Source: a virus. Taken from it: 28,879 nucleotides of DNA. The notes beneath the pieces are model-generated. The model saw only the letters and a list, made by a program, of their open reading frames with translations. It was not told where the DNA came from and made no database searches. Below are positions 2,899-28,200 of this stretch, piece after piece (within the stretch, counting starts at the first letter, position 1; each line of letters begins with the position of its first letter). The stretch spans positions 1 through 28,879 of the IMG/VR virus record IMGVR_UViG_3300042326_002351; one strand, written 5' to 3'. Made by a program: the position numbers and the translations under genes.

Positions 2899-4440
2899 AT
2901 GGCAAGTCAACTACAACTCAGACGAGGCACCACGGCTCAGCATGCGCCATTCGTTGGAGCTCCGGCCGAGGTCACCGTTGACACTGACAAAAAAACAGTG
3001 GTCGTGCATGATGGATTAACTTCTGGAGGATTTCCGTCTATTCGCGAGGGAACTGCAGCTGGAGGAGTTCTTGGCGGAACATATCCCAATCCGTCTCTTA
3101 ACAAGCTTGTGACTCCCGGACAGGTCGGTGGCGGCGCCATCACTGACGGAACTATTGGTGGAAGCACGGCAATTTCCACCAGTGGATCATTGACAACCAC
3201 AGGGACTGTCAGCGCGAGGAATTATTTTTCCGATACATATTCGGCGACGGCGACTGATCCTGCTTATTTAAGATTGCGCCGCGGCAGGGGAACAGCGTCT
3301 TTTCCGGCTGTTGTGCAAAACAACGATCTGCTGGCCAACATTGTGGCCGATGGGCGCGATGCCGCGCTCAACTGGGTCGTTGCCGGAAGAATGACCATCG
3401 AGGTCGATGGCTCTCCTGGAACTGCCGACATGCCAGGTCGAATTGTTTTCAGCACCACGGCCGATGGTGCGAGCGCCGTGACGGAGCGCATGCGGATTAC
3501 GAGCGCCGGTCGCGTCGGCATTGGCGCGGCTAATCCGAGTGAACTTTTTCAAGTGGGAGACGGCACAGGGTTCACCATGCCGCTTGTCCTTGGAGACTCA
3601 AGCAGCTACGGGGCAGGACTAAGAATCCACAACGACAATACCGGCGCCAGCACTGCGTGCTTTATTGATTTCGGTCTTGGCGCGGATGTTTCGGCTGCGG
3701 CGATTCACGCGCGAAAACAGTCAGATGGCTCGACTGACTTGGCGTTACTGCCATCCGACACCGTTGGAGCTGTCTTTGATGCAATCGTCATGGATGGCTC
3801 GTCTGGGGGCATTAGTCTTACCGGAGACGTTACGATAACCGACAAAATCATCCACAGCGGCGACACCAACACAGTTATCCGCTTCCCTTCGGCGGATACC
3901 GTCACAGTAGAAACCGCCGGAAGCGAGCGCCTCCGCGTCAGCTCTACCGGAGACGTGTCATTTAACTCAACCGCAGTTAGCACCAGCACAACTGTGGGCG
4001 GCGCATCTTGGACAAGCACCGGATACCATGTGCTTTATAGTAACGCGACATTAGCCGCAAGCGGCATTCTTGACTATTACTCAGATTGGGACGCGACGAA
4101 ACGCAATGTGTTCCGCGTGCAGGCGGACGGCAACGCTCTCAACTACAACAACAGTTATGGCGCGTTGTCGGACGCTTCCATTAAGGAAAACATTGTAGAC
4201 GCAACGCCGAAACTCAACGCGCTGAAGCAGGTCCGAGTGGTCAACTTTAACCGCATTGGCGATCCCGATAACAAGCAGATCGGCATGGTCGCCCAAGAGC
4301 TTGAGCTGATTTGGCCCAAGCTCGTCTCGCAAGACCAAGACGGCATAAAGTCGATCAAATACAGCGTGTTGGTTCCTATTCTTATCAAGGCCGTGCAGGA
4401 GCTGGCGGCAAAAGTTGAGGCACTGGAGGCCGCACAATGA
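2899..4440 (+). CDS. Tail fibre with Mtd-like N-terminus and S74 self-cleaving chaperone
   Basis: This is a 513-residue fibre. Residues 5-13 repeat the LQLRRGTTA tail-attachment domain of the 892 protein. Residues 59-65 hold GGTYPNP, a common fibre linker motif. The middle is a long beta-rich shaft with MRITSAGRVGIG- and SERLRVSSTGD-type repeats, typical of trimeric fibre bodies. The last 90 residues are an intramolecular chaperone (peptidase S74 family). SDASIK places the catalytic Ser at 424 and Lys at 429, spaced as in endosialidase-type chaperones, and the end is a coiled coil (about 490-513). The known family mechanism is that the chaperone trimerises the fibre and then cuts itself off just before the Ser, so the mature fibre would be about 423 residues. 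It is probably the main receptor-binding fibre. Confidence 0.87.
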   Translation: MASQLQLRRGTTAQHAPFVGAPAEVTVDTDKKTVVVHDGLTSGGFPSIREGTAAGGVLGGTYPNPSLNKLVTPGQVGGGAITDGTIGGSTAISTSGSLTTTGTVSARNYFSDTYSATATDPAYLRLRRGRGTASFPAVVQNNDLLANIVADGRDAALNWVVAGRMTIEVDGSPGTADMPGRIVFSTTADGASAVTERMRITSAGRVGIGAANPSELFQVGDGTGFTMPLVLGDSSSYGAGLRIHNDNTGASTACFIDFGLGADVSAAAIHARKQSDGSTDLALLPSDTVGAVFDAIVMDGSSGGISLTGDVTITDKIIHSGDTNTVIRFPSADTVTVETAGSERLRVSSTGDVSFNSTAVSTSTTVGGASWTSTGYHVLYSNATLAASGILDYYSDWDATKRNVFRVQADGNALNYNNSYGALSDASIKENIVDATPKLNALKQVRVVNFNRIGDPDNKQIGMVAQELELIWPKLVSQDQDGIKSIKYSVLVPILIKAVQELAAKVEALEAAQ

Positions 4441-4596: not shown

Positions 4597-4935
4597 ATGA
4601 TCTTCGAGGCAAAACTCGCGGCCGGGGGAATCCTGGCGGGCGTTACGGGCATCTTTGCCACGGGAAGCGTCACTCCGGTCGATCTTGGCTGGCTCAGGCC
4701 GCTCGTCGAGCTCGGCAGTTTCGGGATCATCGCCTTCGCGGCCGTCTACGTCCTCATCCGGGTCGCCCCGGAATTCATCCGCCACCTCGACAAGGCCAGA
4801 GACGCCTTCCTTGTAGAACTCCGCGAAGAACGACAGATGCGCCAGAAGAATTTTGATGTTCTCACTCAGAATCTCCACGATATAGACAGGTCGATCCAGT
4901 CTCTCGAGAGATCGGTGAACCAACAGAAGACGTGA
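4597..4935 (+). CDS. Small membrane protein with coiled coil (possible holin-like)
   Basis: The protein has 112 residues. A moderately hydrophobic Gly/Ala stretch covers about 5-22, and a clear transmembrane helix about 40-56 (GSFGIIAFAAVYVLIRV). The following half (60-112) is charged, with heptad-like spacing, and is probably a soluble coiled coil. The arrangement resembles phage holin or pinholin-like and lysis-associated small membrane proteins, yet the gene lies among fibre genes rather than next to the endolysin. The stop overlaps the GTG of the next gene. The membrane segment is seen; the lysis role is inference, and a membrane-anchored accessory protein is equally possible. Confidence 0.55.
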   Translation: MIFEAKLAAGGILAGVTGIFATGSVTPVDLGWLRPLVELGSFGIIAFAAVYVLIRVAPEFIRHLDKARDAFLVELREERQMRQKNFDVLTQNLHDIDRSIQSLERSVNQQKT

Positions 4936-6269
4936 GCATCCTCGACACCGCCGAATACCGCCGCCTGGCACTCCTGGCGGCCGGGGTCGACCCGTCTCAG
5001 ATTCCGGCCATCCTCGACACCGCCACCTGGCGCCGTCTCATGATCGCGGCCCTCGTGGCCATCTCAGAGGGAGGAGGTGGCGGAGGTGGCGGCTACGTCA
5101 ACGGGTCTGTCCAGTTCTACGCCGATCTCCCGGTCACCGTCGGGACCCCGCCCGTCAACACCGCCTACCTCGTTCGCGAGGACTCCGGCGTCTGGTTCAT
5201 CAACCGGAAGCCCGCCGGCATCTACGTCAGGCTCTTCAACAACGGGACCCTGGCCGACTGGGACTATGCCGGAGAGTTCCCCTCGGTCAATGACAGCCAG
5301 TATTTCAGGATCTACGATTCTGCAGATCCCACGAAGGAACTTGCCTTCGATGTCTCTGGAGTGTCTGCGGCGACGACCCGCACGCTGACCGTCCCCGATG
5401 CCTCCGGTAAAATCGCCCTGCAAAGCGAAGCCTACGACTTCTACTACGCCACAGCCCCGTCTGGAGCCACAGGCGGCTCTGGCTCCGCATGGGTCTGGAA
5501 CATTCCGTCATGGTCTACGATGCAAGTCATCACAATGATCGGCGCGGGCGGAGGCGGCGGCAGTGGGCGCGTAGGTGCTTCTGGCACTGTTTGCGGCGGT
5601 GGCGGAGCAGGCGGTGCTGGTGCATTTGGCACGTTCATAACGCGCATTACGGGAGGAGATCAGATTGAGGTTCTCGTCGGCGCAGGCGGAGCAGGCGGTG
5701 CGGCGGCTGGCACGGGCAACGGCAACGGGTTAAGCGGAACGGCAGGCGGAAATACATCTGTTCGCTGGGTTACGCCAAACATTACGCTGCGGCAAAGCAC
5801 AGGTTTTGGTGCTGGAGGCGGTGGCGGCGGCGGAACCGCAACCTTTGGAACCGCTGGAATTGCTGGAGCAGGAGTCGCATCAACCATACTTGGCTCTGGC
5901 GGCGCTGGCGGTGCAGGAGTTGCAGGAAGCGTAACTGGCAACGCTGGTGGCGGCTCAAACAATAACTCAACTCAAGGCGGACGAGCAGGCGGCTCCATCG
6001 ACGCGACACCAACGGCATATAATGGCGGGGCGTTGTTGGGCAGTTCTTTTACAGACATTCGTGAATCTTTTCTTTTGCCCAACCTTTCACCAAAAATCGG
6101 CACAGGCGCAAAGGGCGGAAACGCTTCCACAACCGCCAACGCACAAGCGGGAGACAACGCTGGCGGATTAGGCGGTGGTGGCGGCGGTGGCGGTGCTGCG
6201 CTTACTGGATTTTTAAGTGGCGCTGGCGGCAACGGTGGCGATGCCTTTGTCCGCATCAACTGTTTTTGA
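4932..6269 (+). CDS. Polyglycine-rich tail fibre/adhesin
   Basis: This 445-residue protein starts at GTG 4932, overlapping the previous stop (GTGA). Residues 3-45 contain a duplicated helix pair (ILDTAEYRRL and ILDTATWRRL). A run of eight glycines follows, then a fibre-type domain (about 55-115, with YVRLFNNGTLADWDYAG) and a second beta segment to about 170. From about 195 to the end it is dominated by Gly and Ala in blocks such as GAGGGGGSG and GGAGGAG, closing with GGDAFVRINCF. Such C-terminal glycine-rich domains form polyglycine-helix sandwiches in phage adhesins such as the T-even gp38 type, where the loops between blocks contact the receptor. It is probably a second or third receptor-binding protein. 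Base use changes near 5430, as if the C-terminal part was exchanged. Confidence 0.75.
   Translation: MSILDTAEYRRLALLAAGVDPSQIPAILDTATWRRLMIAALVAISEGGGGGGGGYVNGSVQFYADLPVTVGTPPVNTAYLVREDSGVWFINRKPAGIYVRLFNNGTLADWDYAGEFPSVNDSQYFRIYDSADPTKELAFDVSGVSAATTRTLTVPDASGKIALQSEAYDFYYATAPSGATGGSGSAWVWNIPSWSTMQVITMIGAGGGGGSGRVGASGTVCGGGGAGGAGAFGTFITRITGGDQIEVLVGAGGAGGAAAGTGNGNGLSGTAGGNTSVRWVTPNITLRQSTGFGAGGGGGGGTATFGTAGIAGAGVASTILGSGGAGGAGVAGSVTGNAGGGSNNNSTQGGRAGGSIDATPTAYNGGALLGSSFTDIRESFLLPNLSPKIGTGAKGGNASTTANAQAGDNAGGLGGGGGGGGAALTGFLSGAGGNGGDAFVRINCF
4938..5024 (+). repeat. 15-bp direct repeat at the start of the adhesin gene
   Basis: The 15 bases ATCCTCGACACCGCC occur at 4938-4952 and again at 5010-5024, 72 bases apart and in frame. 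They encode ILDTA in both copies, and the similarity extends at protein level over RRL and Ala residues. This is most simply an old in-frame duplication of a short helical segment. Confidence 0.75.
5525..6255 (+). repeat. Gly/Ala-coding low-complexity tract
   Basis: This stretch is dominated by GGC/GGT/GGA/GCA-type codons in repeated short blocks coding for runs of 3-8 glycines with alanines, interrupted by more complex loops (for example around 5760-5810 and 6040-6100). It is the DNA of the polyglycine domain of the adhesin. The blocks are similar but not identical, so slippage or recombination could vary loop spacing and receptor contact. Confidence 0.7.
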
Positions 6270-6917: not shown

Positions 6918-7075
6918 AGACGGCGCTCGTGGTCATCATCCTGGCCTTCATCGTGGCAGCCCTGCTCTCGGGCTGTGCCACCCCGAGGATCGGGTTCGGC
7001 TATGACTTTCTCAACCAGAGAGTCACCGTCTCGGTCGAGCCCGGCGGCAAGCAGGTCGTGAAGCCCGAGCGATGA
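6914..7075 (+). CDS. Small lipoprotein, spanin-like (53 aa)
   Basis: ATG 6914 overlaps the holin-like gene's stop. The first 22 residues form a lipoprotein signal: MKT, a hydrophobic core (ALVVIILAFIVAALL), then the lipobox LSGC with the acylated Cys at 21. The mature part is only about 33 residues and is rich in beta-prone residues (VTVSVEP). The gene overlaps the endolysin start (ATGA). Small phage lipoproteins beside an endolysin are usually outer-membrane spanin subunits, which fuse the two membranes at the last step of Gram-negative lysis. The partner inner-membrane spanin is not obvious; the TM plus coiled-coil protein at 4597 could be considered. An upstream in-frame start at 6647 would read through unrelated sequence and is rejected. 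Confidence 0.65.
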   Translation: MKTALVVIILAFIVAALLSGCATPRIGFGYDFLNQRVTVSVEPGGKQVVKPER

Positions 7076-7653
7076 AAAAGACGCAGATCCAGATCCTCCA
7101 GGAGTCGGTCGGGGTCGAACCCGACGGCTTCTGGGGACCGAAGTCCATCCTGGCCTGTCAGCGCCATCTTCGGGCCCTCATGCCGAGGCCGAATCCGTGG
7201 CCAAAGCAGGATCAGAAGAGTCTCACGGCGTTCTACGGCCCGGCGGGCTCGGTCTCGACCGCCCGGATCTCGGTCCCCTACAGGATGTTTCTCTACAACG
7301 GGCCGGAGACCATCCGGACGCTGGCCGTCCACGAGAGGCTCGCTCCCAGTCTTTCTCGAATTCTCAACGAGCTCGGGAAGCGCTATCGGACCGACGAGGC
7401 CAGGACCGAGGCCGGGGTCAACCGCTATTTTGGAATCTACGCCAACCGCAACATGCGAGGCGGAACCCTCCCGAGTCTGCATGCCCGGGCCGCCGCGATT
7501 GATCTCGACGCGAGCCGGAATGGCCTCCACGCGCACTGGCCGACCAGGGCCCACATGCCGCTCGACGTGATGGAGATCTTTGCCCGTGAGGGCTGGCTCT
7601 CCGCGGGAGCCTTCTGGTCGAGAGACGCGATGCACTTTCAGGCAACACAATAG
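7072..7653 (+). CDS. Endolysin, peptidase M15 family (D-Ala peptidase type)
   Basis: This 193-residue enzyme would cut peptide bonds in peptidoglycan cross-links. The N-terminal 5-35 (LQESVGVEPDGFWGPKS) looks like a short peptidoglycan-binding repeat. The C-terminal half carries the zinc site of the M15 family: S135-x-H137 and D144 in SLHARAAAIDLD, then a late W182..D185-AMH188 element, where H188 is the third zinc ligand. This order (S-x-H-x6-D ... D-x-x-H) is typical of VanY/CwlK-like phage endolysins. No signal peptide is present, so it needs the holin for export. It overlaps the lipoprotein gene by ATGA and closes the lysis cassette. Confidence 0.85.
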   Translation: MKKTQIQILQESVGVEPDGFWGPKSILACQRHLRALMPRPNPWPKQDQKSLTAFYGPAGSVSTARISVPYRMFLYNGPETIRTLAVHERLAPSLSRILNELGKRYRTDEARTEAGVNRYFGIYANRNMRGGTLPSLHARAAAIDLDASRNGLHAHWPTRAHMPLDVMEIFAREGWLSAGAFWSRDAMHFQATQ

Positions 7654-7665
7654 GAGGAGACATCC

Positions 7666-8676
7666 ATGAAAAAAGAAACCACTGACACCAACTGGGGCAA
7701 GGTCGCGCAGGCGGCCCATGCCGCGGATCACCAGACCAGGCTGGCCGAGACCCAGGCCCAGCTCGAGGCCGAGCGGAAGGCCCATGCCGAGACTGTCAAG
7801 ACCCTCGAACGCGCCCGCACGGCCGGGAAGAAAGCCGTCCAGGTGCCGAGGCCCTCGAGCCCCAGGGCCGGCAAGGGCGACATCGTCGAGGTCATCTTCT
7901 CCGACGTGCACGGCAACCAGGTCGACCCCGCGGCCTTCTCGGCGCTGCTCGGTGATCTCAAGATCCTGCGCCCCGACCGGATCTTCATCGGAGGCGACTT
8001 CATCAACTGCGGCGGATTCCTGGCCGAGCACCACGTCCTGGGCTACGTGTCCGAGGCCGACGACAGCTACGAGGACGACATGGCCGTGGCAAACGGGCTG
8101 CTCGACGCGATCATGGAGTCAAGCTCCTGCCCGGACATCCACTACCTCGAGGGCAACCATGAGTGGCGCGTCGAGCGCTGGGCCCTCACGCAGCGACTCG
8201 CCCACCACAAGGACGTCGAGCTGCTGCGCAAGACCTTCTGTGCTGAGCACGTTCTGCGCCTCAGGGAACGTGGCATCCGCTACTACCGGCAGGGCCACCT
8301 CCACGAGGGCTGCGACACGCCGGGCTGGGTGAAGCTCGACAAGATGTTCTACGTGCACAAGATCAGCAACTCGAAGGACGCGGCCGACGTGGCCCTGGCC
8401 AAGGCCGGCGGCAACATCTGCTACTTCGACACCCACCGGGCGAGCTTCAAGCCCAAGCACATTCCCGGCATCGGCCTGGTCAGCGCCTGGAATCCGGGCT
8501 GTCTGTGCAAGCGCCAGCCTCTCTACGCCAACACCCGGCCGACCGAGTGGACCCACGGCTACCTGGTCCGCTTCATCTCCCGGGCCACCGGCAACTTCAG
8601 CATGTTCAACGTCACCATCAACGCCGGAGAGAGCTATGCCGGCATGCTACTGAAAGGAAACCGCTCAGATGCCTAA
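7666..8676 (+). CDS. Calcineurin-like metallophosphoesterase
   Basis: The protein has 336 residues with a strong ribosome-binding site (GGAGGAG at 7653-7659). Residues 20-55 form a charged coiled coil. The catalytic domain follows: D80-V-H82 (SDVHGN), D111 (GGDFIN), N164-H165 (EGNHEW), H231 (YVHK), then D255-T-H257 where the family usually has G-H-x-H. These bind two metal ions that hydrolyse phosphate esters or diesters. Phage members of this family are common and their substrates mostly unknown; roles in nucleotide or DNA-end processing and in signal-nucleotide degradation have been proposed. The replaced His in the last motif is unusual. The gene overlaps the next by 8 bases. Confidence 0.82.
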   Translation: MKKETTDTNWGKVAQAAHAADHQTRLAETQAQLEAERKAHAETVKTLERARTAGKKAVQVPRPSSPRAGKGDIVEVIFSDVHGNQVDPAAFSALLGDLKILRPDRIFIGGDFINCGGFLAEHHVLGYVSEADDSYEDDMAVANGLLDAIMESSSCPDIHYLEGNHEWRVERWALTQRLAHHKDVELLRKTFCAEHVLRLRERGIRYYRQGHLHEGCDTPGWVKLDKMFYVHKISNSKDAADVALAKAGGNICYFDTHRASFKPKHIPGIGLVSAWNPGCLCKRQPLYANTRPTEWTHGYLVRFISRATGNFSMFNVTINAGESYAGMLLKGNRSDA

Positions 8677-13208: not shown

Positions 13209-16200
13209 ATGCAATCTCCCGCGATAACCCAGGGGCGGCTCGTGAGCGTCGACGCCGGATGGATGTCAGGAATGAACTCTGTCCGGCACCCGTGGTTTCT
13301 TCGCCAGGACCAGTATCGCCGTGGAGTCAATGTCGTTAATCGTGGCGGCGTCATCCAGACGAGACCTGGTTTCCGCATGCGCCTGACCCTGCCAGAAGGA
13401 AACTTTCAGGGAATGGCTCACTTTCAGGTGACCAAGAACGGGCGTCGCGACGATTACCTGGTCTTTGCGGTAGATGGCAAGATTTATTTTTTGCCGTTTC
13501 CTCTCGAGCAGCCAAGATTCTGGGAAGAGTTTTGCCTCAAGAGTCTTCAGTTTTCTGCCGATGCAGACATGATCCACTTTGCGGTCGCCGAAAAGACCGT
13601 CATGACCGCGCCCGATCAGACACTCCAGATCGTGCCATCGCACAACGTGCTGATGATCCAGGACGGCGTGACCCCGGCCGCATACTGGGACGGCGAGGAA
13701 TCGCGGCATCTCGTCGAGGCGGCCCCGAGTCTCGAGACTCCGACCGGGACCTGGATGACCTTCTCTGGAGGACGTCTCTGGGTTGCGCGCGGCAATATTC
13801 TCCTGGCGTCTGATCTGTTTGACCCGGTCAAGTTCACCGAGCGAGTCGAGGGCGAGGGCCGAGGCGATTTTTCTTTTCCGAAACAGATTACCGGACTGAC
13901 AAGCTTCATTGGAGAAGAGCGGGTCGAGGTTGTCGTGGTCTTCACCGACGAGCGCAGCGAGATTGTGCTCTCTGGCATCCGCGATCGCGCCCAGTGGGCC
14001 ACGACCCAAGGAATGCAGTCGATTTTATTTCCGAGCACGGGCTGCATCGCGGGACGCAGCATCGTGTTCCAGGCAGGACTCATGTGGTGGTATAGCCCGG
14101 GAGGCCTGGTCGCCTCTGACGCCGCGGCATCGAGCAACCTGACGAGCCAGATCAATTACCGTGACGCCGAAATGGCCTTCAGCAAGCAATTTCTCAATGA
14201 TGATTCATCGATGATCTGCGGCCTTAGCTTCGAGAACTATCTGCTAATGTCGATGCCGATCGGACAGAATCTGAATTCTGAGACATTTGTGCTTGACTAT
14301 TCGCCGCTGAGCGAATTTTCCTCTGAAAAAATTCCGGCATGGTCTGGAGTGTGGACGGGAATTCGCCCGATCCAGTGGGCATCTCCCGTGATCGACGGAA
14401 AGCGCCGGGCCTTCGCGGCATCAGTCGACTACCGGGCCCTCTCTGACGGGAGCCACAACCATGTGTGGGAGGCCTTCATGCCGGAGAGGGAGGACACGTT
14501 TTTCGAGCTTGGGAGTGACTTCACAAGGATTGACTTTGCCAGGCCGATCTTCTGCGAGTTCGAGACGCGCCTAATCGGAGACGGCCACGATCTCAAGTCG
14601 TTCCAGTATGCCGACATCAACCTGATGGAAATTGCCGGAGACGCCTATGTCACGGCAAACTACCGTGGGATCCGCGGCGCTTACAAGCCAGTTCTCTGCA
14701 AGCGCATCATCGCTCCGATCACGGCGGCCTCCGCGGGCGCCGACATTCCGCCATCTGAGCTCGGCATCCTTGACGGTCTCAAGAAACAGAGCCGCCGGGT
14801 CACAACCGAGAATGCCCTGCCGTCCGACGGCTGCCCGACCTGCGAGTCCGAGTATTCCGAGAACATCGACAAGGCCTTCAGCATTCTCGTCAGATGGTGC
14901 GGCCAGATGGCCGTGGAATCGATCAGGATCTTCATGGAACCGTGGGCCGAGCGCGCCGAGGGACGCTGCGAGGAAAACGAGACCAATGTCTGCCTGGTCG
15001 GAGAGGACGGCAGGAACCACATCTACAGCCGCGAGGAGGGCTTTGTGGCTCTCGAGGATCTTTACGAGGTCGGAGGCAACGCGTGGGCCTCGACGAGGTC
15101 CGCGACTGTCACCCTGACCTGTCCGGTCGGATCGGTGACTACCGGGCCATTGACCGTCACGGCCACGTCGACATACAGGTCAAGAATCTCGCAGGCTGAC
15201 GCCGACGCGCAGGCACTCGCGTCCGCCCAGACGGCCGCCCAGGCACAGGCCGACTATCTCAGGACGATCTATCCGTGCTATTATGACTCGGTGCAGTCCG
15301 TGACCCGCCACTGTTATTCTGAGCTCAACGATGACGCCCTCGCCATGACGAGACTGTCTGACGGCCGTGTCATTCTCGGGGGCCAGTTCTGGAGAGACAA
15401 CACGACCAACCAGGGCAAGATCACCGAGAGAACCTCTGCGGGAATCCGGAGCCTGACTTTCACGCAGGGAGACGGCTTCGTGTCAAACTTCGGGGCAGAG
15501 CCGAGTTCCGAACAGATCAACGTGCTGCTCAATGACACAAACGGCATCTATGCTCTCGGAGAATTCAGCGAATACAACAATGGCGCCAGAACTCGGATCG
15601 CGCGGTTGACGTCGGCCGGGGCGCTCGACACGACCGTGACCTTTGGGACGGGATTCAACACGGCCCCGACCGCCGCCTGCATTCTTCCGTCTGCTCTCGC
15701 CGAGGTCTCAACGGTTCAGGTCATTTCAGCCCACGGCGGATCATACTTTGATCTCGGAGACGCAAATGGGCCCGTGCGAGTATGGATGGACCACAACAAC
15801 TCGTCGAGTCCTCCGGCGGTTCCGTCTGGCGGTCGCCTGCTCGAGGTCGACATGCAGAATTCTGACACGGACGCGCAGCTTGCAACTAAGATACAGCTTG
15901 CGGTCGATGCCGACGCGCAGTTCATCGCGACAGTCGCGTCCGACACCGTCACCATCACGGCCTCCGCGACCGGGCACCGTCTCCATGTGACCGAGCCAGG
16001 CTCGGGCACGCGCTTTGTGGTGGCGACCGCGGCGCTCGGCTCGTCTGCAGGATCTCTCGTGATCGGCGGGACATTCACTACATACGACTCAGTCGCCGCG
16101 GCAAAGCCGATCATTCTGATCGAGGCAAACGGTGTCAGAGATGCCGATTATCTTCCCACGGGATTCACGAAGATTTTTGCTCTCATTCCCCAGACCGGAA

Positions 16201-16868
16201 ACCTTGTCTATGTCGCCGGATACGAGTCTGTCGCCGGAAAGGTCCGTGTGGCGAGGCTTCTCACGACGGGCGTCGAGGATCCGGCATTCACGCCGTATGA
16301 GGTCACGGTCGCCGATCCCGGATTTGCCTCGATGGCCCTGCAGGCCGATGGCAAGATCATTGTCTCGTTTGACGGCGCCAATTCTGCCAAGGATCTGGTG
16401 AGACTCAACACCGACGGGACCGTGGACTCGACCTACAATGTGGGGACCGGACTCGACACCGCGGCCCGAGCCATTCTCATCCTCGCAGATGGAACTGTCA
16501 TTCTCGGGGGCAACTTCACGACCTACAACTCTGTCGCCGTCCCGCGGATCGTCAAGACCACGGCACTGGGAGCGGCCGTCGGGGCATTCAATCCCGGAAC
16601 CGGATTCAACGCGACTGTCCGGGCCCTCATGCTTCCTTCGACCGGGACATTTTTCTTTGCGGCGGGCGATTTCACGTCCTACAATGGCAACACGGATTCC
16701 TATGAGAAATTCGGTCGTATCGACCAGACGACGGGAGCAGCCCTCGTCACCCGCCAGACCGTAATTGTCACCGGACGCCATCGTGGCACTGTCTCTCAGG
16801 CCGATTCTGACACGCAGGCCCTGGCGCTTGCCAATGCCCGGGCCCTCATTGAACTTCCCTGCACCTGA
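13209..16868 (+). CDS. Tail nozzle-like protein fused to a delta-60 beta-propeller
   Basis: This 1219-residue protein starts one base after the adaptor stop. Residues 1 to about 615 resemble a podoviral tail nozzle (tubular B type): an opening with a YRRGVNVVNRGGV and RPGFR stretch, then beta-propeller-like strands (DYLVFAVDGKIYFL, LMIQDGV, GRLWVARGN, LMWWYSPGG). Residues about 636-689 match a DUF5977-like element (SQADADAQALASA ending in a Cys). About 705-1177 are seven blades of the delta-60 type (LSDGRVILGG, ALGEFSEYNNG, LVIGGTFTTYD, VYVAGYESVAG, QADGKIIVSFDG, DGTVILGGNFTTYN, FAAGDFTSYNG), with LDTT/VDSTYNVGTG-like ends. A second DUF5977-like end (SQADSDTQALALA) closes the protein. The nozzle role is inferred from order and fold; the propeller is clear. 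Confidence 0.7.
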   Translation: MQSPAITQGRLVSVDAGWMSGMNSVRHPWFLRQDQYRRGVNVVNRGGVIQTRPGFRMRLTLPEGNFQGMAHFQVTKNGRRDDYLVFAVDGKIYFLPFPLEQPRFWEEFCLKSLQFSADADMIHFAVAEKTVMTAPDQTLQIVPSHNVLMIQDGVTPAAYWDGEESRHLVEAAPSLETPTGTWMTFSGGRLWVARGNILLASDLFDPVKFTERVEGEGRGDFSFPKQITGLTSFIGEERVEVVVVFTDERSEIVLSGIRDRAQWATTQGMQSILFPSTGCIAGRSIVFQAGLMWWYSPGGLVASDAAASSNLTSQINYRDAEMAFSKQFLNDDSSMICGLSFENYLLMSMPIGQNLNSETFVLDYSPLSEFSSEKIPAWSGVWTGIRPIQWASPVIDGKRRAFAASVDYRALSDGSHNHVWEAFMPEREDTFFELGSDFTRIDFARPIFCEFETRLIGDGHDLKSFQYADINLMEIAGDAYVTANYRGIRGAYKPVLCKRIIAPITAASAGADIPPSELGILDGLKKQSRRVTTENALPSDGCPTCESEYSENIDKAFSILVRWCGQMAVESIRIFMEPWAERAEGRCEENETNVCLVGEDGRNHIYSREEGFVALEDLYEVGGNAWASTRSATVTLTCPVGSVTTGPLTVTATSTYRSRISQADADAQALASAQTAAQAQADYLRTIYPCYYDSVQSVTRHCYSELNDDALAMTRLSDGRVILGGQFWRDNTTNQGKITERTSAGIRSLTFTQGDGFVSNFGAEPSSEQINVLLNDTNGIYALGEFSEYNNGARTRIARLTSAGALDTTVTFGTGFNTAPTAACILPSALAEVSTVQVISAHGGSYFDLGDANGPVRVWMDHNNSSSPPAVPSGGRLLEVDMQNSDTDAQLATKIQLAVDADAQFIATVASDTVTITASATGHRLHVTEPGSGTRFVVATAALGSSAGSLVIGGTFTTYDSVAAAKPIILIEANGVRDADYLPTGFTKIFALIPQTGNLVYVAGYESVAGKVRVARLLTTGVEDPAFTPYEVTVADPGFASMALQADGKIIVSFDGANSAKDLVRLNTDGTVDSTYNVGTGLDTAARAILILADGTVILGGNFTTYNSVAVPRIVKTTALGAAVGAFNPGTGFNATVRALMLPSTGTFFFAAGDFTSYNGNTDSYEKFGRIDQTTGAALVTRQTVIVTGRHRGTVSQADSDTQALALANARALIELPCT
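15320..16740 (+). repeat. Seven delta-60 beta-propeller blades with one inserted domain
   Basis: Blade centres can be counted at about 15350, 15545, 16060 (split), 16200, 16345, 16490 and 16640. Each has a DG-x-[IV]-x-[IV]-G-G-like strand, a short F-TTY/EYNNG turn, a basic arginine-leucine strand and an ending like LDT/STYNVGTG. Blade 3 is interrupted between ILPS (ending 15695) and GSLVIGG (about 16050) by an unrelated domain of about 115 residues containing GGSYFDLGD, VWMDH and SDTDAQLATKIQLAVDAD. Confidence 0.75.
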
Positions 16869-17556: not shown

Positions 17557-18333
17557 ATGGGCGGAGGAAAAACACCATCAGTGCAGTTTGCGCAACCCAT
17601 CGAGTGGTATGGGCAGGGCATTCAAGACATCCTTGGTCTTGGGAGGGACATGACCGGATATGTGGCGCAGACGCCGCCAGAACAACTGACTGAAAACATT
17701 CCGCGTCTCCAGGAAATGGCTCGCCGCGAGGCCACCATCAATGCGCTCAATTCTGCGGCTCTTGAGCGAGAACTTGCCCCAGAAACTTCCAGAATGCGGG
17801 CCGGACTGCGTCAGCAGCTTGAAGAGGATTTTGCTGGGGGTCCCAGCCGAGAACTTTCCAACCTGTGGCTTCGTCAGGGACTCTCAGATGTTGTGGGAAC
17901 CGGAGCAAAAACAGAATCTGGATTTGCCCGGTCGGCGCTCGCCGATCGCAGCCGGCGAGACTATTATGCCAACCGCCAGGCTCTGCAGGACCGAGTGTCG
18001 TCATATCTTCAGGCCAATCCGGCTCCCGTGGCCGGCCTGGATCCGGGCTCTCTCGCTGGAATCATGAGCCAGACGGCCGCAGAGAACGCGAATCTTCGCA
18101 ACGCATATCGTCAGCAGGTTTTGGGATACATGGGAGCTCAGACCGGAAACGTGGCCAATGCCTTCAATCAGGCGGCCCAGATGGAAGCGGCACGCCGCGC
18201 CCAAAACGTCAGTGCCTACAACGCCGCGCAGGCAGCCGGAGCCGCAAATCGGGCCTCCATGGCCGGGGCCCTGATCGGAGGCGGCGGCGCTCTCGCTGGC
18301 GCCGGAATCACGGCGGCCGGAATCGCCCTATGA
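17557..18333 (+). CDS. Ala/Gln-rich probable internal virion (ejection) protein
   Basis: I prefer ATG 17557 (MGGGKTPSVQF) over the TTG at 17548, because three later proteins also begin MGG. The product has 258 residues. Its middle is a long, mostly helical part rich in Ala, Gln and Arg (RLQEMARREATINALNSAAL, RMRAGLRQQLEEDFAGG). The end is a Gly/Ala-rich hydrophobic tail (GALIGGGGALAGAGITAAGI) that could insert in a membrane. Helical body plus hydrophobic end is the pattern of ejection proteins that leave the capsid with the DNA. The stop overlaps the next start (ATGA). The role is inferred from composition and place. Confidence 0.6.
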   Translation: MGGGKTPSVQFAQPIEWYGQGIQDILGLGRDMTGYVAQTPPEQLTENIPRLQEMARREATINALNSAALERELAPETSRMRAGLRQQLEEDFAGGPSRELSNLWLRQGLSDVVGTGAKTESGFARSALADRSRRDYYANRQALQDRVSSYLQANPAPVAGLDPGSLAGIMSQTAAENANLRNAYRQQVLGYMGAQTGNVANAFNQAAQMEAARRAQNVSAYNAAQAAGAANRASMAGALIGGGGALAGAGITAAGIAL

Positions 18334-19163
18334 CCCTCGACCGGCGTGTCGAGGCCACGATCGATTTTCTCGATCGCATGCTCAGGACGGCAAAGAATCC
18401 GGTCATTCTCTGGTCGGGCGGCAAGGACTCGATGGTGGTCCTGCATATGATCAAGTTTCTCATGAAGAGAGAACTTCCTGTCGTCTGCTGGCGAGAGCCC
18501 TGGATGCCAGAGAAGCTGCGCTTCGTCAATAGGATCATCGACGAGTGGAATCTTGAGGCGCACGACTATGCTCCTTCGGCCGTCAGTCTCTGTCGAGGAA
18601 AAGAGGGCAGAGTCGACATCATGGAATGCTACCAGGTCAACTCCATGGCAATGTCCAACTCGCAGCATCTCATGGTGGCGCGCGGGACAATTGTTCCAGA
18701 AGAAGGGCGGCCGTTTCTCTGTGCACTCGAGACGTTTCTTGCCCGTCCCCTTGGGACATTCAACTTTCCATGGGACTGCATGGTCATGGGCCACAAGTCC
18801 TCTGACGACGACCCGACCGTTGGAAAGGTTCCCCTGCGAGTCGACCGGCTCCAGCTCGAGAACGCCGGGACGATCCTTTATCCGATTCGCGAGTGGACCG
18901 ACGGCGACGTCTTTGAATACCATGAGAGACACTCGGTGCCGCACGACGAGACGCGCTACGACGTGAAGAATCGAAGAGTCCTTGGGAAGGACTCGACAAA
19001 TCCCGATTATTTCCATACCTGCACAAAGTGCTGCGACCCGACCTCGGCGTCCTTTGTCAGGTGTCCCAAGTATGGCATCGACGTGAACAACGTGTCACAT
19101 CTGGTTCCGTGGGTCAGGCCAGATTTTGCCTACTGCGGGCTCGGACGTGAGGATTCTGCATAG
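18330..19163 (+). CDS. PP-loop ATPase, PAPS reductase-like
   Basis: ATG 18330 overlaps the preceding stop (ATGA); the same frame is open further upstream but would cover that gene. The 277-residue product has the ATP pyrophosphatase loop S29-GGKDS34 (WSGGKDSMVV), followed by a helix and a VVCWREPW strand. Late residues form a Cys cluster C231-x2-C234-C235-x9-C245, and near the end is C269-GLG, which recalls but does not equal the ECGLH of CysH. The family binds ATP or a sulfonucleotide and activates sulfate or tRNA/DNA sulfur groups; phage members are often tied to nucleic acid modification. It lies between probable ejection proteins, not in a metabolic operon. Substrate and partners are unknown; the Cys set suggests an iron-sulfur or zinc site. 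Confidence 0.8.
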   Translation: MTLDRRVEATIDFLDRMLRTAKNPVILWSGGKDSMVVLHMIKFLMKRELPVVCWREPWMPEKLRFVNRIIDEWNLEAHDYAPSAVSLCRGKEGRVDIMECYQVNSMAMSNSQHLMVARGTIVPEEGRPFLCALETFLARPLGTFNFPWDCMVMGHKSSDDDPTVGKVPLRVDRLQLENAGTILYPIREWTDGDVFEYHERHSVPHDETRYDVKNRRVLGKDSTNPDYFHTCTKCCDPTSASFVRCPKYGIDVNNVSHLVPWVRPDFAYCGLGREDSA

Positions 19164-22217: not shown

Positions 22218-25200
22218 ATGGCCGTTCTCAAGGAAGTCACCGACGAGGTCACGTCTGAGACCAGGCCAAAATCTGGCGTGGTCGGCGGAGTCTCGCGCGG
22301 CGCCGTCGGGCGTCGCCGCAAGAAGAAGCCCGCATCGATTCTTGACGAGGTCACCGAGGAGGTCTCAAAGGAGCCGACCCCCGAGGAGACGCTCGCGCAG
22401 GTCATGCGCGAGACCGAGACAGATCCAGAGACGGTTCGCCGCATGCGGACCGAGGGACAGCGTCTCACGACCGATCAACAGCGCATCGCCTTCGAGGCAG
22501 AGCGGGCGAGGCCACTGACCGATGTTGCACTTGGGGCCGCGGGTGCCTTCATTCAGGCCGTCCCGGAAACCGTCGGGCAGCTCGTCAGGGGAACAGGCAA
22601 ATTTGCCTATGAGGGAGCTCTCAAGCCCATCGGTCAGACCGTGCTTGCCGGGCTGCAGTATGAACCCGGATCGGACGAGTATGAGCGGGCCCTGTCACAG
22701 ACGTATGGCGGCGCAAACCGGGCCGTTCGCTCGCTGGCCTCCGGGGTCGCGCAGGACATGGAAGAAACGGCCAACGCCGCAACGAGGGCCGCAATGTTCG
22801 GGACCAGCATCACCGACCGCGCCGCCGAGAAGCTCGGGCTCGTCACGCCAGAACAATCTTTCAACAACTATCTCGCACGCGAGGACATGCGCCGCGGCGA
22901 GGCCGAGGACATCCAGGAGAATCCTGATCGCGCCGCGACCCTGCTGGCCAGAAACCCGCTCGCCGGGACCGTGATCGAGGGAGCGGCCGCCATGTCCAAT
23001 CCCATCGAGTTGCCATACCGCCCCTCCTCGCCATGGATGCCTCGAACAATTCCGGGACCTGGATTCACGACGCCAGAAGAAAAACAGGCGGCTCTCAGGG
23101 GCTATGAAGAATCTCTTCTCGCTGAAGCAAAATTTCGACCAGACGAGGACATCTCGATGCTCGGCGAGGTCCTGTCTCCGGTCGGTCTTCCGGCCAGACT
23201 GGTGAAGCCCGTCACGAGTGCCCTTGGCGGAACCATGGAGGCCGCGGGCGGACTCGCAGTTCGCGGAGTGACCAGACCCACGATCCGAGGCGTCAACCCT
23301 CTCGAGGGAGTCGGCATCGGAATCCGAAAAGTCGGCGAGGGAGCCGAGAAGGTCGGAGCCGGAGTCAGTCAGGCGATCACGGGACGCCCCGACACCTTCC
23401 TGGCGGCACCTGGCACGATCGTCTCGGCATTCACAAAGAGACCCGGTCAGCTGGTCGAGGGAGTCGGCCGCACGCTTCGCGATGTCGGCCGCCAGATCGA
23501 CGAGGGCGGGATTCGCGGACGGACCGGCATCGTCGAGCGCCTCGGAAGAGACCCCGCCTCGGCCGACTGGATCCGCGACCTCTTTGGACCCGGCGCCCAG
23601 AAGCGACTCGAGAAGATGGAGCGCAAGAACAAGCAGCGCGTCGCCGAGGGCAAACCCGAGATCAAGCCCGGACGCGGCGGGGTCATGCGGGCCCGCACCG
23701 CCGACTATGGTCTGCGTCTCGCGAACAGTCTCACCAAGTCGGGTGTCTCGGGAGCCGCGCTCAACGGGATCATTGGGGCGGCCGACATCGAGACCGCAGA
23801 AGAATTTGGCCGCTCCACCGGCGTGGGCTTTGGCATCGGCTCCTACATGGCCGGTCGCGTGCCCGAGCGCATCGGGGCAGCCCTTGATCCGACGACAGAT
23901 CTTCGCACCCGAATCAACAGAGTCACCGAGATCGACCCGCTCGATCGCAGGCTGGACGAGGACGCCGATCGCAAGCGCTACCGCGTGACCACTGATCCGA
24001 AGCTGATTCGCCAGGCCGAAAGAATGGCCGACCCGGACGTGCAGATCGAGTCGCGCGCGAGGGAACTTGACGCGCTTTTTCAGCGCAAGGCCGAGGCCGA
24101 CTATGCCGAGCAGGACACGACAGACCTGGACATGGAGATCACGCAGAGGGCCGACGAGCTTGCCGCTCTTCAGGAGACTGCCAAGAACATGACCCAGGAG
24201 CAGCGCGATGAGCGCCGGCGCGCCGTGGAGCTGATCATGATCGATGTTCTCGATCAGGCCCGGGCGACAGGTGCCTCTGCGGGGCTGAACAACATCGAGG
24301 TTCAGATCGTGGATACCGACCAGGTGTCGGCGTGGCTTCGTGAAAAATGGGGAGCCACTCTTGAGCGGGCCGAGGCCATCGTGAGTCAGCTCGACGGAAA
24401 ACAACTCGGCGGATCTGAAGCCGAGACACTGAATCGGGCCAGAAACACGATCGAAAAATTCAACAAGGAACTTGAACAGGCCGTTCAGTCGCATGTCGCG
24501 CTTGCGCCGGAAACGGAGCGCGAGGGAGAAACTCTAACGCCGCCGCACCTTAGGCCGGCCAACGTCACGTCTCCGACGGTCATGATCAACGCGGGCTATG
24601 TCATGAACAATCCCGCGGGACTGAGGCATGCCCTGTCGCACGAGATGAACCACGCGCTGTCGAAGTTCAAAGAAGTTCAGGACATGCAGCAGCCGGCACG
24701 GCAGTTTTTATTTGGAAGATATGCCGATCAGTTCATGCCCGACGGGACTGTCCGCAAGATGCCCGTGACACCTGGAGTGATCACCGATGAAGTGCTCGAT
24801 TCCGTGTTTGTGCCGCTGTATGGCAGTCGGACAGTCGGTGGAGTGGAAGGATTCAAGAGAGGATTTCCAGACACTGACAAGATGCGCGAATACATTCGTG
24901 AAGAAATCATGTCAGAAATTGCGGCGATCTCGGAGGGTGGCTACCAGACGATGCGCGAGGGCCTGGATTCGCCCGGACAGGCCGTCGTCGACCGGCTGCT
25001 GGTCGCGAACCAGAACTCGATGCTCGGGCGACTTCGCCAGGCCCTGGAGGCCGTCGGAGTCGAGCTTGACTCGCAGGGCGATGTCCGCTCAGTAATCTTT
25101 GGAAGCAACGTCGCGATTCCTGAAGTTCTTGCAATGATGCGTCAATACAAGCGGCAGCTTCTTGAATATACCGACACGATGACGTTTGTGGGCGACTCGC

Positions 25201-28200
25201 TGCAGGATGACATCGAGATCAGCCTCACCGAGCTCATGACCAACCGGGCCCTGCAGGAGGTCTACAAGGATGACGTCATCTGGGACAAGGAAACGGTGCT
25301 CGACATTCGCGACAAGGACGGAAACGCGCTGTCACAGATCGTGATACCGGACAGCCCCGTGGCCAACTCGGCCGCGATCGGGGAATACCGCCTCGTCAAC
25401 GGGCAGCTTGTCGACGAGAATGGCAACGTGCTCCCGCCGATCGACCCGGCCATTGATCTCTCGGCATTTCCGGAGGGATCGAGCGCGTCCATTGACAACC
25501 GCATCGCCCGCAACCCCGACGGCAGTCCCAAGATTCTCCAGAACAAAGAGATCCAGGCGCGGGCTCGCCAGCGCGACCAGATGATCAAGGACGCGATCGA
25601 CAACGCGCCAGAGGACGGCTTCGAGGGCCGGATGAGGGGCGACGAGAATGGCAACTATACCGGGACGCTCAGTCCGTCCCAGGTCGAGGCCATCATGGCG
25701 CTGCCCAACACGCTGGTCACCCCGTATGTCAAGAAAAATCTGATTGCGTTCAGCGAGGTCTTGCAGCGTCGTGACGGGACTCGCATCCTTATGGAATACC
25801 AGCCCTCCCTCAAGAAGGGAAGATATCGGGCCCTCGCCCCAAAGATTCGCGACGTTGTGCCGATTGGGTTTCGATTCACCAAGCAGGGCAACTGGCTCGC
25901 CGTCACGGCATCGGTCAGCCGCATGTTTGACAAAATGAACCTGTGGGCCCAGAAGAAGCCCGAGAACCTCAATCTTTGGGGACGCAGCACCTCTAAGTTC
26001 TGGGCCGACGTCATGAAGGTGCTCGACAATCACAATCGCGGACTCGCCGGGCAGACCAACCTCGACATCGACCCCGACATCGCAATGCAAAAGAAGAACC
26101 GCATCAACGACTTCTTCAACATGTTCTCAAAGGAGACCGAGGCCTCCAATCCGTCAAGAACCAAGCTCCCGGCCCAGCGCGGAAAAGAGTCTGCCGACCG
26201 GATCATCATGTCGGCGCGCATGGACCGCATCAACCAGATGCAGATCAGCAACGCCGCCAAGATGCCGATCGACTACGGCAGGATGAAAATCAATTTCTTC
26301 CCAGAGAGACCCGATGGCGCGCTCCGTCTCGACCAGTCGCAGGACCTCGAGGTGGAAAACGACATTGTCGGCGGCGCCATGCCTCGGTTCCTTCCCGGCA
26401 TCCGCTACACGTCGCTTCCCGACGATCCCAAGAAGACCATGGCCGACTTCTACATGCTCAACGCCATGATCACGACGCCGCCGACTGGATGGAGCATGGG
26501 CAAGTTCGGTGGCGAGGCCACCATGTATGCTCCCTCGGCAGACCCGACCGGGCGCTATGCCGGAGTCCGCGCCGAGAAATACCAGGACGCCCTCGATGAG
26601 GCCAAGCAGACGCTCATCCCGTCTCTCCACAGCAAGATCCAGAAGGCACTGCATTTTGCGATCGCGGCCGAACTTCGCCATGCCATTCCGCGCAGACAGC
26701 CGACCGACCTGGCCGAGTCTGAATTCTATCAGGAATACATGCGCCAGTATGCGATCCAGGGAGCGGGCATGCCAGATCTCAAGAAAGAAAAGGGGCCACG
26801 CCGCTACAAGGGAGAGAGCGAGGGCTATAAGGCTTCTTTTGTCGCGATGGAGAATGCCCGCAAGAAACTGGGCATGGGCATCGCCGACGTGGCGCGCTTT
26901 GCCGAGCAGCTGTATCGTCGCGGCGACTGGTCGTCGAGCTACGGCGGAAACCCATGGGGCGACATCGCGGCCCATCTCGCCCAGATGTCAGATCCGACAT
27001 ATTCCACCGAGCGAGTCCGCGCCGTCGCGACCGATCCAGAGACCGGCCGCATGCAGGTCATTGAGACCAACGAGTTTCGCGACCCGGGTGCCTACAGCGC
27101 CATGTTCCAGGAGATCGACCGTGCCTACGACCTGCAGCACAACACCAACACGGTCTTCAACAAGCTCAAGAAATACTACATGGGAGCCGAGGGATACGGC
27201 TGGATCGCCAAGATGCTCGACTTCAAGGCCAACGTGGGAAATCCCCGTGAACTGCGCGGGCTCGTCAGTGGCACCATGGGAAAACTGGCCGACGCCTGGT
27301 TTGCCGACATGCGAGCCGACGCGCCTCTCACCCAGGATCTTGAAGAGAGCGTCAAGGCACAGCTGCCAGAGAACTTCAAGGACGTGGCCCTTGATCCCGA
27401 TCAGTTCATTGAGGTGCTCAAGGATCTCGTTGGCAGTTATTATCGCAAGTCATCAAGCGGCGTCCGTCGAGAGAACCCGTATGAGAACATTGCCAACGCG
27501 GCCGAGGGAATCCACCGAAATCTGGGACGGGGCAGTGACGCCTGGAAGGCCATCAAGAAGGACCAGAATGCCCACATCGGTCTGATCCTGCAGGACCACT
27601 TTGGAGACATCGGAATCGCGCAGACAGACGCCACGAAACTCTTTCGCATGCTCCTGAACGAGGGCAAGGATCCGCGGGTGACCGGCAAGAAGCCGTCTTT
27701 GTCTAATGTCCCGAATGTCGAGATCAAGCTTCCGAAGCCAAAGCCCATTGCAGACCAGAACTGGTTCATGGGCAGCACATTCAAGCCAAAGACCAATGTT
27801 TCGACTCCGACGAACCTCAACAAGTTTGTTGAGACTCTCATGACCGCCGGATTCAACGGCCTGAAGCTCGGCGATGTCACGGTTCTCAATGCCGGTGGAT
27901 CTGGCAAGGTCGCGACTCTCAAGGTCTATGCCGGAGACTCAGTGTCTGAGGGCAATCTTCTCACCACGGCCCAGATTCCTGGCGGCAAGAAGCGCGACGC
28001 CGTTGACTGGCTGTCCGACTACGCGATGATGCGCGCCAAACAGGCCGGCTACGGCAACGTCATGGACTGGATGCAGCAGAATCTGAAGACCGAGATGAAG
28101 CCGCAGATGCCCGCGCAGAGTGAGGGAATCAGCAATCTTCTTGAGAATCTTCCGTGGGCCGCGAGAAACAGAGTCAATCAACTGCTTGAGAATCTGCAGG

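Follow-up and report, generated by a model that had tools for sequence, protein, structure and literature searches.

In phage T7, the nozzle protein gp12 combines a seven-bladed channel propeller with a platform, and the available text of its description (PMC6702177) assigns the adaptor-contacting platform to the C-terminal domain and lets the distal tip domain emerge from a loop of blade 3. The SU10 nozzle, gp17, is described as being built like T7 gp12; in the accessible accounts of both proteins, the two chain ends lie in the platform, and the additional tip or nozzle domains are placed within blade 3 or between blades 2 and 3. The crAss001 muzzle, gp44, is also a large nozzle with added domains, and the part of its description available to us (PMC10172136) reports them as immunoglobulin (Ig) and crass-fold domains that are inserted at blades 2 and 3 on the distal side, with no mention of a delta-60 propeller in that part. 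Here, we describe a protein in which the additional part is instead appended after the platform. It is encoded in IMG/VR virus record IMGVR_UViG_3300042326_002351, whose analyzed stretch (positions 1 to 28,879; 28,879 nucleotides) is referred to below as the window. The gene occupies positions 13209-16868 and is an uninterrupted open reading frame (ORF) with no internal stop, whose stop codon ends at 16868. Its product is almost certainly the nozzle, or gatekeeper, in the tail of an uncultured short-tailed phage, to which a second propeller has been added.

A preliminary description of this DNA, made from the letters alone, had proposed that the N-terminal half is a podoviral nozzle, and the predicted fold clearly bears this out. 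A model of residues 1-690 was obtained from a 50-sequence alignment (predicted local distance difference test [pLDDT] of 71.7, with residues 276-336 and 348-383 below 50). When this model was compared with the PDB by Foldseek, the first 18 ranks were all taken by entries whose titles refer to phage tails or virions, and they include PhiM1, Pa223, P22 (gp10-gp26), HRP29, E1004, Sf6, GP4, 7ey9, VP1, SU10, P-SCSP1u, and T7 gp12. More specifically, chain Y of the Pa223 tail aligned with a Z score of 18.6 across 437 residues, corresponding to our residues 10-583 (VIA), the P22 entries reached Z scores of 15.5-15.8, crAss001 gp44 reached 16.7, and Sf6 gp8 was recovered by Foldseek only. A second structural alignment placed phage tail chains over 388-452 residues between 10 and 584; other propeller chains gave similar Z scores, yet covered 238-294 residues only, mostly inside 40-446. 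The resemblance is therefore to the whole chain of a nozzle of the T7 gp12 or P22 gp10 type, i.e., to a platform plus a channel propeller. In entry 8eap, residues 2-472 of a 471-residue P22 chain, which we take from its length to be gp10, match our residues 12-577, and thus residues ~585 to 1219 follow a complete nozzle, after its platform. Chains of the P22 type (P22 gp10, Sf6 gp8, and Pa223 chain Y; 471-512 residues), which share our fold over residues ~10-584, end where our platform ends and have neither a stalk nor a second propeller.

When the protein and the profiles A3 and A5 were searched against PDB sequences, no nozzle or propeller match was returned, so the link to nozzles comes from the predicted folds. 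Matches to PHROGs were weak (E up to 0.1): 36 of 50 members matched phrog_511 ("internal virion protein"), and 7 of 50 matched phrog_8040 ("head closure Hc3"). The gene context also fits a podoviral nozzle, given the upstream virion-protein partner and nearby matches of the endolysin, tail-fiber, and virion types; a homologue of the upstream partner was present in all 16 records searched, although in G014 as the C-terminal part only. By analogy with T7, P22, and SU10, the protein would form a hexamer on the adaptor and gate the channel.

The C-terminal half had been described as a complete seven-bladed delta-60 propeller, and this is upheld by both profile and fold. In Pfam, the protein matches DUF5122, the delta-60 family, with 81.8 bits against a cut-off of 27, and all four significant stretches fall in the second propeller. 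The corresponding NCBIfam model, delta_60_rpt (TIGR02608), gave 48 bits and stayed under its whole-protein cut-off of 76.5, as did the relatives L034 (68) and L018 (58.2). A model of residues 620-1219 (16-sequence alignment; pLDDT of 84.7) aligned with propeller structures over residues ~703-1175 with Z scores of 25-27, including the designed seven-bladed propeller 7big (Z score of 25.6; root-mean-square deviation [rmsd] of 2.6) and CylK (27.2; rmsd of 3.5). Blades were also counted with a hidden Markov model (HMM) trained on viral delta-60 proteins that do not belong to the nozzle family, for which the best of 100 shuffles set a threshold of 5.4 bits. Six blades of the window protein exceeded it (7.3 to 42.1 bits), at residues ~717-759, 777-819, 946-988, 1045-1089, 1093-1139, and 1151-1165, and the blade near residues 993-1040 went undetected by this model. 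Among 12 long forms of the family, 11 showed six blades and one (L121) showed seven, whereas the short forms L022, L033, and L059 had none above the threshold. The predicted count of seven is thus sound, mainly by fold, with six or seven blades visible by sequence. In comparison with other delta-60 propellers, ours is above the Pfam cut-off and below that of NCBIfam, is fused to a nozzle, and carries a nested domain. At the DNA level, no tandem-repeat array was found.

Since CylK is the best PDB match and is an enzyme with a seven-bladed propeller, and since further propeller enzymes, DPP-4 and a quinoprotein dehydrogenase, follow at lower ranks, the second propeller could be read as catalytic, acting for instance as a glycan hydrolase or in the manner of CylK. 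In the part of its published description available to us, the CylK propeller is fused to an N-terminal Ca-binding beta-roll, and no such beta-roll was seen in the window protein; searches of Pfam (to an E value of 1) and NCBIfam (to 0.1) matched only DUF5122, DUF5977, and delta_60_rpt. We regard catalysis as very improbable.

The propeller had further been said to be framed by two DUF5977-like segments. The first is clear (Pfam match at residues 629-682). The second reached 14.5 bits in Pfam, which is below the cut-off, and joining its two halves brought no gain with the Pfam model; it is retained here as a probable unit, of which the downstream segment is one half. We built a custom DUF5977 HMM from nine units of three non-nozzle phage proteins (L129, L130, and L132). 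With this model, residues 691-705 joined to 1178-1219 scored 35.1 bits, whereas the second half by itself scored 20.6 and none of 20 controls exceeded 22.0. When the 15 residues that precede the propeller were fused to the segment that follows it, the score rose by 10-16 bits in 7 of 12 proteins, above 20 controls each; these seven include five close relatives and represent 3 of 5 lineages, and no gain was obtained with this HMM for the proteins of L128, L060, L123, L125, and L126. We therefore consider a second DUF5977 unit that is split around the propeller, with the propeller sitting in its hairpin, to be probable from these sequence comparisons. DUF5977 is named among the stalk domains of fibrillar adhesins in the accessible part of PMC8286594. 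The non-nozzle viral proteins L129 and L130 each hold four tandem DUF5977-like units, cut by eye, in their C-terminal parts, which fits a stalk-like repeat.

Blade 3 of the second propeller hosts a nested domain of ~115 residues, which we call domain X (residues 831-945) and which the preliminary description had overlooked. L016, L017, L018, and L034 lack it. Its Pfam matches were all sub-threshold (RicinB_lectin_2, 16.1 bits against a cut-off of 25.6; a phage sheath domain, 15.8 against 31.4; and two weaker ones), and its match to a tail sheath PHROG (E value of 7e-4) was likewise counted as sub-threshold. In the 1342-residue relatives, X is itself interrupted by a homologous domain, Y, whose HMM matches the window protein with an E value of 8e-14. 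The halves follow one another as X first, Y first, Y second, and X second, an order consistent with insertion rather than tandem duplication. Across the family, the propeller thus accepts 0, 1, or 2 nested domains. In addition, a nozzle relative at L015 3558-6710, which runs off its contig end, has a propeller with a different and longer set of inserts, including further X-like sequence.

Relatives of the protein were collected by searching IMG/VR with the protein and with alignments, where one of the searches gave the best 80 of 289 matches. The resulting family comprises 90 distinct homologous ORFs, of which 72 are complete: 15 long forms (1089-1342 residues) with the propeller and 57 short forms (695-715 residues). 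Nozzle proteins with the same tail, for which the preliminary description had called, thus do exist. The 57 short forms end at the position where the first DUF5977 unit of the window protein ends. By record (several being fragments), DUF5122 was found at an E value of 0.001 or below in 7 of 7 long-type records, six of them over the cut-off and always in the frame of the nozzle, and in none of the 13 short-type records. In a tree of 74 sequences, 17 propeller forms (the 15 complete ones plus the incomplete L015 and L052) form one fully supported group together with the short form L059, and propeller gain or loss on this tree needs two changes, with the position of L059 being unsure. L059 stops after a DUF5977-like stretch, and its 18-kb record contains no DUF5122.

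A tblastn search of the nozzle against 50,697 phage records gave only two weak delta-60 matches, and a short-form query gave none. Scanning genome contigs with profile A3 did not yield a confirmed relative, and hence no host or prophage was found. Propellers of the delta-60 family are common in viral contigs, with at least 151 confirmed stretches, including those of the nozzle family, from a search that kept the best 80 matches, and BFVD entries, one of them named "Delta-60 repeat", match the C-terminal model. Duplication of the nozzle's own propeller is not favored: BLASTP between the two propellers gave a best E value of 6.6, and DUF5122 occurs in the second one only. A very old duplication is possible, as the C-terminal model matches nozzle proteins at low TM-scores. 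Base composition gave no clear sign of a recent acquisition (58-59% GC in the blades and 58% in the core, with 63.5% in insert X and 64.2% in the linker plus DUF5977). Among the matches listed from the open-licence PMC literature, judged by title and the start of the abstract, no nozzle with a delta-60 propeller was found, nor any published description of such a nozzle extension. The nearest case is a structural protein of phAss-1 (PMC10607447), which likewise has a predicted C-terminal propeller; in the available part of that paper, its N-terminal part is Ig-like and a nozzle platform domain is reported to be absent, whereas ours has a platform.

The preliminary description had the added propeller face the host, and this is not what the known nozzles suggest: according to the accessible accounts of T7 and SU10, the C-terminal end of the polypeptide belongs to the platform on the adaptor side, and the tip is formed by a domain inserted within the chain. 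By this analogy, the extension would most probably emerge on the adaptor side. With the platform oriented towards the adaptor, the extra propellers, which would number six in a hexamer, would most likely lie laterally around the proximal tail and not at its tip, and we consider such a placement, beside the tail near the head or collar, to be likely. A host-facing tip that binds a receptor or glycan is accordingly at odds with the adaptor-side C-terminus of T7 and SU10, and we hold it to be rather unlikely, even though the C-terminal model retrieved the Photorhabdus lectins PHL and PLL2 in Foldseek, the best, sub-threshold Pfam match of domain X is to a ricin-type lectin family, and no other large domain of the protein diverges as fast as the propeller. 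Across five divergent long forms, mean identity is 36.1% in the delta-60 part, compared with 66.7% in the channel propeller, 54.7% in the C-terminal part of the platform, and 55.2% in DUF5977. This divergence, together with the tolerance for nested domains, is as would be expected of an exposed, loosely constrained part.

The tip reading also has to account for a close relative, G001, a 66.6-kb contig. Apart from the insertion of Y, its nozzle matches that of the window end to end (95% and 89%), and the delta-60 part without insert is 94% identical between the window and L117, on the G001 contig. Three fiber-type genes match G001 by tblastn in their N-terminal parts only: 892-1338 over 47 of 148 residues, 2899-4440 over 56 of 513, and 4932-6269 over 164 of 445; blastp extends the 2899-4440 match to 108 residues at 50%. 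The gene at 2899-4440 has tail-fiber matches, and that at 892-1338 has a tail-protein match. In this one pair, fiber-type genes have therefore been exchanged and the propeller has not, which makes it unlikely, from the one genomic comparison, that the propeller determines host range. N-terminal-only sharing of the kind seen in these three genes is the usual sign of swapped receptor-binding modules.

Propellers are common protein-binding platforms, and the main rival to an adhesive role is a docking hub, in which the second propeller would bind the N-termini of tail fibers or spikes at the collar, like the fiber docks of T7 gp12 and SU10 gp17. The platform adjoins the adaptor, where, according to the available descriptions, T7 fibers dock between nozzle and adaptor and SU10 long fibers dock as well, and conservation between the window and G001 extends to the fiber N-termini as well as to the propeller. 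On the other hand, the fiber anchor family phrog_9648, which is present in the window, was detected in three of the seven long-type records, among which there are fragments, and in none of the 13 short-type records, and L059 does without a propeller; we judge docking to be unlikely, if worth keeping in view. That this anchor tracks the propeller is unsupported. A purely structural part, which lends rigidity to the collar or closes off the space where tail and capsid meet, would suit the co-conservation of propeller and core inside the clade of the window and, in the accessible literature, the stalk-type nature of DUF5977, but it sits poorly with a propeller that diverges far more than the core between lineages and accepts nested domains, and we think it rather doubtful. 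Finally, it is an improbable idea that the outer propellers form a six-fold collar ring that acts as a mechanical sensor, in which cell contact would pull the platform via the DUF5977 stalk and help open the inner-propeller gate.

The explanation that we prefer, whose chance of being right as a whole we see as evenly balanced, is a two-propeller nozzle with lateral outer propellers that serve adhesion or bracing. Residues 1-584 would form the platform and channel propeller, as their predicted fold suggests; the DUF5977 stalk would start after the platform with a whole unit, followed by a probable second unit whose hairpin would hold the delta-60 propeller. The outer propellers would then hang laterally around the proximal tail and add contacts with the cell surface or neighboring tail parts, and separate fibers would set host specificity. 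The role of the propeller as a solvent-exposed, non-catalytic module for adhesion or bracing is a tentative assignment.

Several observations weigh against this explanation. DUF5977 was recognized in 24 of 50 A3 members, long and short (Pfam, E value up to 0.1); by record, it was found in 7 of 7 long-type cases (six over the cut-off) and in 5 of 13 short-type ones, none of them over the cut-off, and this patchy recognition makes the "stalk" identity weak in the short forms. The group of propeller forms in the tree also contains L059, which has no propeller and can therefore do without the module. The lateral placement is drawn from homology of fold, and a 40-residue linker together with the DUF5977 stalk could extend in the direction of the tip. 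The rapid divergence of the propeller may reflect nothing more than weak constraint. Domain X is only 79% identical in the G001 pair and holds Y in G001. The fiber comparison comes from a single relative, and 4932-6269 counts as fiber type only via the tail-family matches of its G001 counterpart.

Table 1. Features of the two-propeller nozzle gene and its upstream neighbor in the window
Feature	Coordinates	Strand	Notes
Two-propeller nozzle protein gene	13209..16868	+	1219 aa plus stop
Nozzle platform, N-terminal strands (~residues 1-50)	13209..13358	+	Fold matches cover 10-584; split after the available T7/SU10 descriptions; putative boundary
Nozzle channel beta-propeller (~residues 51-425)	13359..14483	+	Many propeller chains aligned over ~51-425
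Nozzle platform, C-terminal part (~residues 426-584)	14484..14960	+	Phage nozzle matches stop at 577-584; putative platform, after the available T7/SU10 descriptions
Variable linker (~residues 585-625)	14961..15083	+	44.6% mean identity, 5 divergent long forms
DUF5977 unit 1 (residues 626-690)	15084..15278	+	Pfam, 36.9 bits vs cut-off of 25; two strands plus long helix (model)
Probable first strand of DUF5977 unit 2 (residues 691-705)	15279..15323	+	Custom-HMM joining test
Seven-bladed delta-60 propeller, insert included (~residues 703-1172)	15315..16724	+	Pfam, predicted fold, blade HMM
Domain X, ~115 aa, within blade 3 (residues 831-945)	15699..16043	+	Absent from L016, L017, L018, L034
Probable DUF5977 unit 2, second half (residues 1173-1219)	16725..16865	+	Strand plus C-terminal helix (model); custom HMM
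Upstream virion-protein gene, ~991 aa	10232..13207	+	Adjoins nozzle gene in window, G001, G007

Other genes of the window were noted as well. Both ends of the upstream virion protein are kept across the family, whereas the central part differs in length, with open frames of 1112-1558 residues in 8 short-form records. Near the tail genes lie an endolysin-like gene (7072-7653; phrog_17001) and a metallophosphoesterase-like gene (7666-8676; phrog_221). A phosphoadenosine phosphosulfate reductase-like domain is encoded at 18330-19163, inside the tail gene cluster (Pfam PAPS_reduct, 30.2 bits against a cut-off of 22.5, with the ORF read from 17865), and is 89% identical in G001. The ORF at 22218-28879, of at least 2220 residues and open at the end of the window, is related to ORFs of 2751 and 2877 residues in G001 and G007; its NCBIfam match was negligible, its G001 version matches one PHROG of unknown function, and it is perhaps a large ejection protein. 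The ends of the G001 contig (L203:1-185 and L206:9389-9573) repeat each other over 185 bases at 98.9%, and this record is probably a complete genome.

Collectively, these data clearly illustrate how domains can be nested step by step within a virion protein, from the nozzle tail through (probably) a DUF5977 unit, the propeller, and domain X to domain Y. As far as the available descriptions tell, the nozzles of T7, SU10, and crAss001 vary by distal-side insertions in the channel propeller, whereas here a large module follows the adaptor-side platform. Since relatives with and without this module exist, its role is open to comparative testing.

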